64,000 nt of DNA. It comes from Seongchinamella unica. GTDB taxonomy: Bacteria > Pseudomonadota > Gammaproteobacteria > Pseudomonadales > Halieaceae. Positions within the stretch are counted from its first letter, which is position 1. Every line of letters starts with the position of its first letter. The position numbers and the translations under genes were made by a program. Under the pieces are notes generated by a model that saw only the letters and a program-made list of their open reading frames with translations, was not told the origin of the DNA and searched no databases. Location of the stretch: contig NZ_SMSE01000002.1 of NCBI RefSeq assembly GCF_004354085.1, positions 496,001 through 560,000 of the forward strand. Direction: 5' to 3'. Positions 38,877 to 42,994 of the stretch are shown here, piece after piece.

Positions 38877-38970
38877 TAAAAGTCAAGAACATATCAGAGG
38901 TACGGCTTGCAGCGCCCGCTGGATTACCGCACAATACGCGCCCTCTGCAGGCAGCTGCAGACGCTGTGGT

Positions 38971-39074
38971 GGCCCAGGCGGTCCCCCCGCAACGATAGAT
39001 AGCGAACCCGGCCAGGCCCGGAAGGGAGCAACCGTAGTTATCGACTCGTGTGCCGGGGTGTGGCTGTCTGGGTC
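38971..39074 (+). ncRNA. ffs: 4.5S RNA of the signal recognition particle
   Basis: The RNA component of the bacterial SRP, which with Ffh targets nascent membrane proteins to FtsY. The invariant core is present: the asymmetric and symmetric loops and tetraloop in GGCCAGGCCCGGAAGGGAGC (39010-39029 region), the CCCGCAACG segment on the 5' side and GTGTGCCGGGGTGTGGCTG on the 3' side, as in E. coli. The ends pair as GGCCCAG (38971-38977) with CTGGGTC (39068-39074). Location directly before dnaX matches Pseudomonas. TTGCAG (38907-38912) and CACAAT (38930-38935), 17 bases apart, may be the promoter. Confidence 0.93.
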
Positions 39075-39144
39075 ATCTCCATTTTCTCCCCACCGCCTGT
39101 GGTGTATCCTTTCCTACTTCTCAGATAACAAGGCAATACGGGGC

Positions 39145-40920
39145 ATGTCCTACCAGGTTCTCGCGCGCAAGTGGCGACCCAAGAGTTTCAGGGAAATGGT
39201 CGGCCAGGAGCACGTGCTCCAGGCGCTGATCAATGCGCTGGACCACGACAGGCTGCATCACGCCTACCTCTTTACCGGCACCCGCGGGGTGGGCAAGACC
39301 ACGATCGCCCGGATCCTCGCCAAGTGCCTCAACTGCGAACAGGGAGTCAGTTCGGAGCCCTGTGGTGAGTGCGGTTCCTGCCTGGAAATCGCCGAGGGCC
39401 GCAGTGTTGATCTGCTGGAGGTGGATGCCGCCTCTCGTACCAAGGTCGAGGACACCCGGGAGTTGCTGGAAAACGTCCAGTACGCCCCGACCCGTTCCCG
39501 CTACAAGGTTTACCTTATCGACGAGGTGCACATGCTCTCCACCAGCAGTTTCAACGCACTGCTGAAAACCCTGGAAGAGCCGCCGCCACACGTGAAATTC
39601 CTGCTGGCAACCACCGACCCGCAGAAATTGCCCGCAACGGTGCTGTCCCGCTGTCTGCAGTTCAACCTGAAGAACATGCCTCCGGAACAAATCGTCGGCC
39701 ACCTCGGCAATGTGCTGGAAAAAGAGATGGTCAGTTTTGAGGAGCCGGCCCTGTGGCTGCTGGGCAGGGCGGCATCCGGTAGTATGCGTGACGCTCTCAG
39801 CCTGACTGACCAGGCCATTGCCTTTGGTTCGGGAAAGCTGGTTGAGGCCGATGTGCGCAGTATGCTGGGCAGTGTCGACCTGAGTTTCGTCTACCAGTTG
39901 CTGGAGGGCGTTGCCGCCGGTGATCCCGCCGAATTGCTGGCCATCGTTGCGCGCATGGCCGAGCATGCGCCTGACTTCGAGGGCAGCACGGACGAATTGA
40001 TTTCCCTGGTCCATCGGGTCGCGGTCGCCCAGGTGGTACCGGAGGCCATCGACAACAGCTGGGGTGACGCCGAGCGGGTCGCCAGCCTGGCCCGGTCAAT
40101 TACTGCCGAAGACGCCCAGCTGTTCTACCAGATAGCCCTGAATGGCAAGCGCGACATGGGCCTGGCGCCCGATCCGCGCTCGGGTTTCGAGATGCTGCTG
40201 TTGCGGATGCTGGCATTCCGGCCGGCGGCGGTGATAGACGAGTCATTAGGGCCCGCGGATTTGCAGCCAGCGCCGGCGAATTCTGCCAGCTCCAGCGCCG
40301 CCGTGGAGGTCGGCACCCCGGTAAAAAAGTCACCTGATTCCGTGGGGGAGGGTGCGCCTTCCCAGCCACAGGCCGCGGCGAGTCACCACACGGAACGAAA
40401 AAGAGAGCTTGCCAGTCAGGATTCCCCGGCAGCACCGGTACGTTCACAGCCCGAGCCAGCACCACAAGCGGCAGCCGCGCCCGCCCCTGAAAAGGCGCCG
40501 TTGGCGGCAGCCAGCGAGAAACAGGCGATTGGCGGGGTGACACCGGAAAACTGGTGTGAGTTACTGCCTCAGCTGGGCTTGCTGGGCATGGTGCAGAATA
40601 TCGCCAGCAATATGCAGCTGCTCACTGTGACCGGGGATACGCTGGAGTTTGTGCTCGACGCCGACAATGCGTCCTTGTTCAACGATGGACACCGCGACAA
40701 GATCCGCCTCGCTCTGCAGAACTACTTTGACTGCGAGCTGTCTGTTTCCATAAGTGTTGCAACGCCGCCCGGTGAAACGCCGGCAATGCGCCAGGCGCGG
40801 GCAAGAAACGAGCGCCAGCAGAGAGCCGTTGCCGAGATCGAAAATGACCCGCGCCTGCAGGCGTTGCTCGCAAACTTTGATGGTGAGCTGGATATTACCT
40901 CCATCGCACCGCTGGACTGA
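39145..40920 (+). CDS. dnaX: DNA polymerase III subunits tau/gamma
   Basis: The clamp-loader ATPase, 591 residues from ATG 39145 ([12 protein letters not shown]). Walker A GTRGVGKT (45-52), a zinc module with Cys64, Cys73, Cys76 and Cys79, Walker B LIDEVHML and the SRC arginine-finger motif (LSRCLQF) are present in domains I-II. A Pro/Ala-rich linker (about 370-465) leads to the tau-specific C-terminal domain that binds DnaB and the polymerase. An in-frame A-AAA-AAG heptamer at 40323-40329 should produce the short gamma form by -1 frameshifting, with 397 residues. The longer open frame upstream overlaps ffs and is not used. ybaB and recR follow in the same operon. Confidence 0.97.
40305..40369 (+). 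promoter_or_regulatory. dnaX -1 programmed frameshift signal
   Basis: Three elements of the E. coli dnaX cassette appear in order: a Shine-Dalgarno-like GGAGG (40305-40309), the slippery heptamer A-AAA-AAG in the correct zero-frame phase (40323-40329; codons AAA AAG), and a hairpin (40342-40369; GTGG then GGGAGGG pairing with CCTTCCC and CCAC, loop TGCG, two-base bulge). Slipping back one base gives codons GTC, ACC and then TGA at 40335-40337, ending the protein two residues after the slip. The hairpin begins 12 bases after the heptamer, further than in E. coli. Confidence 0.8.
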
Positions 40921-40936
40921 ATTTGAGGATATTTCC

Positions 40937-41257
40937 ATGAAAAACCTGTCGGACCTGATGCAACAGGCCCAGAAGATGCAAGCCGACATGCAGAAAGCGC
41001 AGGAACAACTGGCCGATGCCGAAATTCATGGCGAGGCCGGCGCCGGCCTGGTCAGCGTCATCATGACCGGACGTCACGATGTCAAACGTGTGACCATCGA
41101 CCCGGCAGTGATGAGCGAGGACAAGGAGGTGCTGGAGGACCTGTTGGCAGCCGCAGTCAACGACGCGGTGCGTAAGGTCGAGGCTCACAATCAGGAAGCC
41201 ATGTCCGGCCTCGCCGCGGGGCTCAACCTGCCTCCCGGTTTCAAGATGCCATTTTAA
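40937..41257 (+). CDS. ybaB: YbaB/EbfC nucleoid-associated protein
   Basis: A 106-residue protein that in other bacteria forms dimers binding DNA as a nucleoid-associated factor. The sequence [15 protein letters not shown], the long N-terminal helix, the central VTIDPAVM and the C-terminal [12 protein letters not shown] match the family along its length. ATG 40937 has GAGGA seven bases upstream; an earlier frame would overlap dnaX. It lies between dnaX and recR, the nearly universal order, which has suggested a role in recombination or replication restart. Confidence 0.96.
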
Positions 41258-41272
41258 GCAGCCGCGGCCGAA

Positions 41273-41872
41273 ATGAAATTCAGTCCTGCACTTCAGGAAT
41301 TGATCGAAGCACTGCGCTGTCTCCCTGGCGTTGGGCCCAAGTCGGCCCAGCGAATGACGCTGCATCTGCTCGAGCGTGACCGGGAGGGGGCGACCGCACT
41401 GGCTGCGGCCCTGCAAACAGCGGTCGATAAGGTAGACCACTGCTCCCGGTGCCGCAATTTCACCGAACTGGAGGTCTGTGAAATCTGCAGTGATGCCCGT
41501 CGTGATGCCGGCACCATTTGCGTGGTGGAAACTCCGGCGGACGTGCTGGCCGTAGAGCAGAGTGGCAGTTATCGTGGCGTATACTTCGTGCTCATGGGGC
41601 ACCTGTCGCCAATCGATGGAATCGGTCCGGAGGAAATCGGCCTGGACCGATTCCAGCAGCGAGTTGTTGACGAAGGCATTGAAGAAGTTATCCTCGCCAC
41701 CAACCCCACCGTGGAGGGAGAGGCAACCGCGTACTACCTGTCCGACGTGTTACAGCGGGAGGGAGTGAAAGTATCCCGCATAGCGCACGGGGTTCCCCTG
41801 GGCGGCGAACTGGAATACGTGGACGGTAGCACCCTGGCCCACGCCTTTTCCGGCCGGCGGCCGGTGGAGTAA
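41273..41872 (+). CDS. recR: Recombination mediator RecR
   Basis: The 199-residue RecR protein, which with RecO and RecF loads RecA on gapped DNA. It has the N-terminal helix-hairpin-helix ([12 protein letters not shown]), a four-Cys zinc finger ([16 protein letters not shown]), a Toprim domain ([16 protein letters not shown]) and the C-terminal Walker B-like segment. Length is normal. It starts 16 bases after ybaB and ends four bases before rnd. Confidence 0.97.
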
Positions 41873-41875
41873 TTC

Positions 41876-42994
41876 ATGGATTGGATACTGATCGAATCGG
41901 ACGCGGCCCTCGCCGAACTGCTGTCCAGCGCCAGAGGCAGCCAGGCTGTAATGGTCGATACCGAGTTTATGCGCCGCAATACCTTTTATCCCCAGGTGGC
42001 GCTGGTACAACTATGTTTTGTCGGCAGCGATGCCGCGGGAACCGCATGGCTGGTGGATCCACTGCAAATAGAGGATCCCTCGCCGCTGGTGGCCCTGTTT
42101 GAAAACCCTGACGTGGTGAAAGTGCTGCATTCCGCCAGTGAAGACCTGGAGGTATTCCAGCACTGGTTGGGGGTGCTGCCGCGACCGCTGTTCGATACCC
42201 AGAAAGCAGCGGCCATGGTGGGGCTGGATTTTGGCCTGGGATACCGGGCAATGGTCCTGGAGTTATGCGGTGAGGACCTGCCCAAAGGTGAAACCCGCTC
42301 GGACTGGCTGCAGCGTCCGCTGACCGAGTCACAGTGTCACTACGCTGCCCAGGACGTTATCTGGCTGCTGGATGCCTACCGTGTCATTGCCGCGCGTTGT
42401 GCGGAGCAGGGCAAGTACGACTGGGTGCTGGAGGACGGTGAGATGGCCTGCCAGGGGTTGGCCTCGACTTCGGGCGCGTATTACAAAAAAATCAAAAGTG
42501 CCTGGAAACTCTCGCCTCGGGAATTGGCAACCCTCATCGCAATCTGCGACTGGCGGGAAGCGACCGCCCGGGAGAAAGACAAGCCGCGCAGCTGGATAAT
42601 CGATGACAAGGCCTGTTTGCAACTGGCGCAAAAAAGCCCCGCCAATATGAATGAACTGCGCGCTGCGGTGGAGGTGCACCCGGGGACCTTGCGTCGTTAC
42701 GGAGAATCGCTTCTGGACCTGATCAGCGAGCATTTCTCACAGGACAATGTCGACCTGCCATCGAGCCTGCCGGCACCGTTGAATGCCAGCCAGCGTAACA
42801 AGCTAAAGCGACTGAAGCAGGAAACGGAAAACATTGCCCGACAGTTGGGTGTTGCCCCACAGGTGCTGGTGTCGGGCAAGGATTACGAGGCGCTGATCAG
42901 GGGTGACGCGGAGCAACCCGCCGCCTGGTCAGGCTGGCGACGGGAGCGGGTTATCGAACCTCTGCGTGCTTTTCTTGATGGAGATGCAGCATGA
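41876..42994 (+). CDS. rnd: Ribonuclease D
   Basis: A 372-residue 3'-5' exoribonuclease that trims tRNA precursors and other stable RNAs. The DEDD-y exonuclease domain (about 1-190) has VDTEFMRRNTFYPQVALVQ, the second Asp near HSASEDLEVF, and the third motif with Tyr and Asp in SQCHYAAQDVIWLLDAY. Two HRDC domains follow (about 210-290 and the C-terminal region). The gene overlaps the following ycgL by four bases (ATGA). Order recR-rnd-ycgL-ycgN continues the operon-like block from dnaX. Confidence 0.95.
   Translation: MDWILIESDAALAELLSSARGSQAVMVDTEFMRRNTFYPQVALVQLCFVGSDAAGTAWLVDPLQIEDPSPLVALFENPDVVKVLHSASEDLEVFQHWLGVLPRPLFDTQKAAAMVGLDFGLGYRAMVLELCGEDLPKGETRSDWLQRPLTESQCHYAAQDVIWLLDAYRVIAARCAEQGKYDWVLEDGEMACQGLASTSGAYYKKIKSAWKLSPRELATLIAICDWREATAREKDKPRSWIIDDKACLQLAQKSPANMNELRAAVEVHPGTLRRYGESLLDLISEHFSQDNVDLPSSLPAPLNASQRNKLKRLKQETENIARQLGVAPQVLVSGKDYEALIRGDAEQPAAWSGWRRERVIEPLRAFLDGDAA

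Follow-up and report, generated by a model that had tools for sequence, protein, structure and literature searches.

The dnaX gene of Seongchinamella unica very probably carries a functional cassette for −1 programmed ribosomal frameshifting, of the kind known from E. coli dnaX, with both the slippage and its rate predicted from the sequence. The core of this signal is textbook and already known; the new part is a stem around the Shine-Dalgarno (SD)-like stimulator, which is probably a real RNA element and which, among the genomes compared, appears so far only in this family (Halieaceae). The window, that is, the whole stretch of DNA that was analyzed, comprises 64,000 nt of contig NZ_SMSE01000002.1, and positions are given within it (Table 1). 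Genera, genomes and loci are cited by our own handles (g, G and L numbers) where they have to be told apart.

The frameshift cassette in dnaX

The product of dnaX, which runs from an ATG at 39145 to a TGA at 40918–40920, matches NF005942 (DNA polymerase III gamma/tau) with 790.9 bits against a cut-off of 613, and Pfam places the ATPase, the lid and domain III at residues 20–357 and the tau domain V at residues 466–587. A shifted product would consist of 395 zero-frame codons followed by Val-Thr, which agrees with the 397 residues proposed for gamma in the first-pass annotation, and would retain domains I–III while losing domain V. Around the gene, a 4.5S SRP RNA (RF00169, 75 bits) lies at 38976–39072 and ends 72 nt 5' of the dnaX start, and the ORFs 3' of dnaX resemble ybaB and recR, as in the E. 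coli gene order. An antisense ORF of 147 aa on the minus strand (40103–40543) overlaps the cassette; it has no Pfam match and is probably due to chance.

Table 1. Features of the dnaX region in the window, with the evidence for each.
Feature	Position	Strand	Basis
dnaX (tau, 591 aa)	39145..40920	+	NF005942, Pfam
Predicted gamma coding path, 397 aa	39145..40337	+	zero frame to 40329, then −1 GTC ACC TGA; predicted shift
Probable upstream stem-loop holding the SD, GCCG 40297–40300 with CGGC 40311–40314	40297..40314	+	covariation, fold z-scores, single fold
GGAGG, SD-like stimulator, 13 nt 5' of the heptamer	40305..40309	+	family frequencies
Slippery heptamer A_AAA_AAG	40323..40329	+	in phase; kept in 105/117 family genomes
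−1 frame stop TGA after two codons (GTC ACC)	40335..40337	+	read from the sequence
Downstream hairpin, 11-bp core 40342–40369 plus CC:GG	40340..40372	+	RNAfold; family-wide stability peak

The first A of the heptamer is a third codon position (GTA AAA AAG), and both the Lys-Lys pair and the in-phase A_AAA_AAG occur only once in the whole gene. When the codons of this dnaX were shuffled 100,000 times, an in-phase A_AAA_AAG arose in 1.5% of the shuffles; in 0.1% it was joined by a −1 stop no more than two codons on. Two further heptamers of the form X_XXY_YYZ are present in the gene (GGGAAAG at 39831 and GGGTTTC at 40182); these are absent from the six other genus members for which the whole gene was read, one of which has GGGAAAA at the first site.

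A dnaX signal of the E. coli type is recognized by an in-phase A_AAA_AAG after domain III, a prompt −1 stop, an SD-like stimulator 9–14 nt upstream and a single tRNA-Lys (UUU). Here the heptamer follows domain III in phase, the −1 frame closes with TGA after two codons, GGAGG stands at 13 nt, and among the 40 tRNAs that ARAGORN calls from 42 matches the only tRNA-Lys has anticodon UUU, with no CUU form. Signals of this type also have a hairpin some 5 nt past the heptamer, where ours has one at 10–12 nt, and yield gamma at close to 1:1 with tau. A distance of 9–14 nt between the SD and the slip site suits −1 shifting (PMC5009743, section 36), and the sole tRNA-Lys of E. coli has been tied to its efficient shift (PMC5009743, section 21). 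The first-pass annotation had proposed a cassette of this type from the heptamer and its phase, the −1 TGA, GGAGG and the hairpin, and we found every element at the place and in the phase that it gave, with the sole tRNA-Lys (UUU) alongside them. The stem around the SD had escaped that annotation.

Across the family, the genus-weighted frequencies of the GGAGG bases at −18 to −14 (negative numbers count upstream from the heptamer) are 0.83, 0.95, 0.82, 0.88 and 1.00. The first of these bases, G at −18, occupies a third codon position, so that its conservation seems to reflect the RNA rather than the protein. The SD is found at the fixed distance of 13 nt in 56 of 105 cassettes, as GGAGG (49), CGAGG (5) or GGGGG (2), and the other 49 cassettes belong to g12 (42), g24 (5), g18 (1) and g26 (1). 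Of the 42 g12 genomes, 25 have their SD match (4–7 nt) at a distance of 10 nt to the heptamer, nine at 8–9 nt and six at 13–14 nt, and two have no match of at least 4 nt.

The core of the downstream hairpin contains a 2-nt bulge and begins 12 nt 3' of the heptamer; RNAfold adds the CC:GG pairs beyond a bulged A, which brings the hairpin to 13 bp and the spacer to 10 nt, with an energy of −17.7 kcal/mol for 40330–40375. In the family as a whole, 36-nt windows starting at +6 past the heptamer have a genus-weighted mean z of −1.78, compared with −0.44 to 0.42 where the start lies between −120 and −54 or between +18 and +156. A repeat with 100 shuffles gave a genus mean z of −1.66, with 22 of 24 genera below zero, and two of the far controls deviated from zero, with means of 0.49 (+120 to +155; p 0.01, that is, less structure than in shuffles) and −0.73 (−120 to −85; p 0.057). 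The hairpin sequences themselves vary widely among species.

As had been remarked in the first-pass annotation, the hairpin spacing is longer than in E. coli: 10–12 nt, compared with the five nt stated in PMC8861025, which gives the efficiency of the E. coli dnaX shift as 50–80%. Because the hairpin lies this much farther away, the shift here may be less efficient than that range. According to PMC8861025, translocation on HIV mRNA became faster when the distance between P site and hairpin was raised from 11 nt to 13 nt. The longer spacing and this effect count against the cassette reading. A tie between the class of −1 stop and the hairpin spacer was considered and rejected, as the median spacers of 6 (one codon, n = 60) and 8 (two codons, n = 40) come with wide, overlapping spreads and from a greedy hairpin caller.

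Conservation and loss of the cassette

DnaX was sought in 58 relatives and in 140 family genomes, and the genes were then retrieved. Of the family genomes, 121 have a match; in four of them (G089, G112, G120 and G139) the gene is truncated or fragmentary, and without these there are 117 usable genes from 27 genera, 105 of which have the heptamer in phase. It lies at codon 372–513 in these 105 genes, in a linker of variable length; in G002, where a frame break cuts the gene, it is at codon 260. The −1 stop follows after one codon in 61 of the 105 and after two codons in 40, with one case each at 4, 5, 6 and 20 codons, and is TGA in 101. The first-pass annotation had named loss of the heptamer or of the −1 stop in close relatives as evidence against its reading, and this did not materialize: all eight genus members, our own genome included, keep both, with the stop after two codons in every one. 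Among individual genes, L028 (G008) has the longest tail of the 105, its −1 frame being open for 20 codons after the heptamer, and in genus g24 (L054, L196–L199) the heptamer lies 97–154 codons past domain III, compared with 13–90 for the other family genes in which the end of domain III was located. In two near-complete genomes a frame break, either real or a sequencing error, interrupts dnaX, near residue 180 in L056 (G002, same genus) and near residue 300 in L200 (G063).

The in-phase heptamer is missing from 12 of the 117 genes, namely all eight of g27, all three of g5, and G063, in which the frame is broken upstream yet A_AAA_AAG followed by CCTGA is present. The DnaX tree groups g27 with g11 and g17, both of which have the cassette, in a clade with support 0.99, and places g17 inside g27 with weak support. 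This shared clade suggests a secondary loss of the heptamer in g27, by one or more losses. The tree places g5 with the order's other families, so that loss and original absence are indistinguishable there. With the heptamer missing from all members of both genera, gamma would be either dispensable in them or made by another route. Gain of a tRNA-Lys (CUU) was considered as the cause of the heptamer loss in g27 and g5 and set aside: a pattern scan of 140 genomes returned no tRNA-like CUU match, within the limits that 32 of these genomes matched nothing, that the hits in the remaining 108 include some that are not tRNAs, and that four candidate CTCTT hits show a different spacing.

Some side observations concern tRNA genes. 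L060–L062 match the anticodon-to-3' half of tRNA-Lys but receive no tRNA call from ARAGORN. A pair of such half matches occurs in several family genomes (in G066 at C1:899106 and 934296, 35 kb apart), and these duplicates may be attachment sites of integrated elements. Between tRNA-Gly and tRNA-Glu at L103 (G000:C3:617050-617600, in our own genome) lie two weak tRNA-like matches (35.7 bits), neither of which ARAGORN calls.

Beyond the family, 21 genomes were compared at the level of the order, a set that includes two cut genes (G038 and G054); in 10 of them A_AAA_AAG lies no earlier than codon 385 and is followed by a −1 stop no more than five codons on. In the class draw, 103 genomes matched (our own included), 69 relatives, mostly the best-scoring, were retrieved and 68 were read (L350 yielded no CDS; L351 breaks off near codon 372, with the linker outside); five of the 68 have A_AAA_AAG with a −1 stop within six codons, one of these at codon 530. 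Of the 80 enterobacterial loci retained for E. coli as the query, 79 keep the heptamer, L237 having none at codons 400–470; one of the 80 records is titled Chryseobacterium.

These counts bear on two other accounts of the heptamer. If it were a chance Lys-Lys pair or a relic, dnaX would yield tau only, and the genera g27 and g5, together with the low count in the class draw, are what such an account would lead one to expect. It is nevertheless highly improbable in our judgment, as shuffling produces the heptamer and stop so rarely and as 101 of the 105 family genes that keep the heptamer in phase also have the −1 stop after one or two codons. Alternatively, as with Thermus dnaX, gamma might result from RNA polymerase slipping on the run of A: a homopolymer run of A is present, and dnaX uses ribosomal or transcriptional slippage depending on the species, according to PMC3711429. 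However, the run has six A here and nine in Thermus (same source), none of the 105 family heptamers is preceded by an additional A, and the run is flanked by an SD-like element and a stable downstream structure that polymerase slippage does not need, so that we attach very little credence to this route. Thermus thermophilus does resemble our case in making tau and gamma from one gene, there by transcriptional slippage, and differs in having two tRNA-Lys (PMC5009743, section 21) where we find one. Ribosomal frameshifting thus stands as our preferred reading of the heptamer.

A stem around the SD-like element

In the single-sequence fold, CC at 40301–40302 also pairs with the GG of the SD, beyond the four pairs of the upstream stem. 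The arms differ among genera, with GTCG/CGAC in g2, g6, g21 and g25, GCTG/CAGC in g6 and g17, CGCG/CGCG in g8, and GCCC/GGGC in g20. The stem or its variants are found in about half of the family cassettes, across 21 of the 25 cassette-bearing genera. In g12 there is no fold excess at the stem site (z 0.07), and a blind scan gave no convincing upstream stem.

The tests of the stem were confined to those 56 of the 105 genomes in which the SD keeps its fixed position, which give 55 distinct segments. All four pairs can form in 38 of the 56 genomes, whereas 5000 shuffles of the 3' arms gave 22 on average and 31 at most. The covariation score is 0.399 compared with 0.188 in shuffles, paired cells make up 86.4% of 220 compared with 75.2%, and 23 cells are changed on both sides compared with 5.8, none of 500 shuffles reaching as high in any of these measures. 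The number of pairs changed on both sides (4 compared with 2.7) was reached by 58 of 500 shuffles and that of further pair types (11 compared with 7.8) by 5 of 500, and the outermost pair is missing in 15 of the 55 rows. In an alignment-free fold test, the segment −28 to −7 has a genus-mean z of −1.57, with 20 of 21 genera negative; −26 to −9 gives −1.52 (19/21) and −30 to −9 gives −0.99 (15/21), and five control windows gave z of −0.17 to 0.29 with 7 to 13 of 21 genera negative.

The main question is whether GCCG/CGGC merely follows from G+C bias and from Ala and Gly codons shared near the SD, in which case the stem would not be an RNA element. The region is indeed coding and G+C rich, and RNAalifold returned no structure for the 55 distinct segments. 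When the columns were made to evolve independently on the DnaX tree, the summed covariation of 0.326 exceeded all 1500 simulations (maximum 0.244, p 0.0007); the paired fraction alone showed no excess over this null (p 0.20). A scan-wide test gave p 0.0025 for the stem (0/400), with p 0.39, 0.03 (−144 to −97) and 0.01 (−192 to −145) for three control segments at 100 simulations each; since control segments also score, the null is too lenient and the scan-wide p-value has to be discounted. Against an origin in composition stands the strongest covariation (−25/−10: CG 35, UA 8, GC 5, UG 2 and other 5 of 55), which joins two second codon positions, such that Ala and Gly codons switch jointly to Val and Asp codons. 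Moreover, sliding the register by 1–3 columns leaves only 20–57% of cells paired compared with 86%, a blind scan of 4-bp registers over 48 nt upstream ranks the SD-flanking one first on paired fraction, as well as on the product of this fraction and covariation, and the fold test turns negative in nearly all genera at the stem but not in the controls. We therefore regard the compositional account as unlikely, while keeping it in view, and the stem as probably real.

We also considered whether the GTTGC/GCAAC stem around the SD of E. coli is the same feature and rejected it: among 72 distinct upstream segments from 79 enterobacterial loci, its register (−30/−7) ranks outside the top six for pairing and also for covariation. 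A literature search, with most subscription papers outside its reach, returned no dnaX paper whose title concerns an SD-holding stem and nothing joining Halieaceae and dnaX.

Proposed mechanism and comparison with known systems

In the mechanism that we favor, GGAGG would pair with the tail of 16S rRNA while the ribosome translates dnaX, and as AAA AAG reach the P and A sites the downstream hairpin would hold the ribosome, so that tRNA-Lys (UUU) could re-pair one base back on AAA AAA. Ribosomes that slip would read Val-Thr in the −1 frame and then stop, releasing gamma without the tau domain V, and those that do not slip would go on to make tau. The upstream stem would keep the SD from mispairing or from early use before the ribosome opens it, and its refolding behind the ribosome would compete with the SD:rRNA duplex and thereby tune the slip.

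The stem and the SD:rRNA duplex are probably mutually exclusive, because the stem shares bases with the SD in single-sequence folds, and we favor the reading in which the stem would act as a mask or release device for the SD. PMC6321510 describes a hairpin adjoining the E site that attenuates −1 shifting on 70S ribosomes in vitro and mimics an SD duplex; the attenuation counts against the upstream stem as a part of the cassette. A more specific proposal, which we put forward only tentatively and consider doubtful, is that the stem forms a fourth part of the cassette, a refolding hairpin that hides the SD until the ribosome opens it and then recloses, stripping the SD from the rRNA. If this were true, the backward pull on the ribosome would be self-limiting, and the tau:gamma ratio would be set by it or become sensitive to ribosome traffic.

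The family provides a natural series of 105 cassettes with several layouts: an SD at 13 nt with the upstream stem; the g12 layout, with a shorter SD match mostly at 8–10 nt and no stem; and that of g24, with its displaced heptamer. The two genera without the cassette stand beside this series. It allows tests of how frameshift efficiency depends on the spacing of the SD, on that of the hairpin and on an SD-masking stem, and of how bacteria without the cassette deal with gamma.

Our cassette shares with that of E. coli the gene, the heptamer and its phase, the prompt −1 TGA, the upstream SD-like element and the downstream hairpin. Apart from the hairpin spacing, it differs in the distance of the SD (13 nt compared with 10 in E. 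coli, counted on the sequence), in the codons before the −1 stop (two compared with one), and in that the SD lies within a covarying stem. The dnaX genes of E. coli and other genera use this signal (PMC3711429), and dnaX is treated as a known frameshift case (PMC4066793). Rfam matches up to E 5 over 38900–42000 include no DnaX element, so the cassette is not filed under the DnaX frameshift element, which exists as a family in Rfam.

Stems 5' of a recoding site are also known from the 5' stem-loop of T4 gene 60 and the upstream stem-loop of barley yellow dwarf virus (PMC5009743, section 36), neither of which that section describes as holding an SD for a bacterial −1 shift. The hairpins of PMC6321510 are upstream of A6G as here but adjoin the E site, whereas the natural stem has the SD within it and stops 8 nt short of the heptamer.
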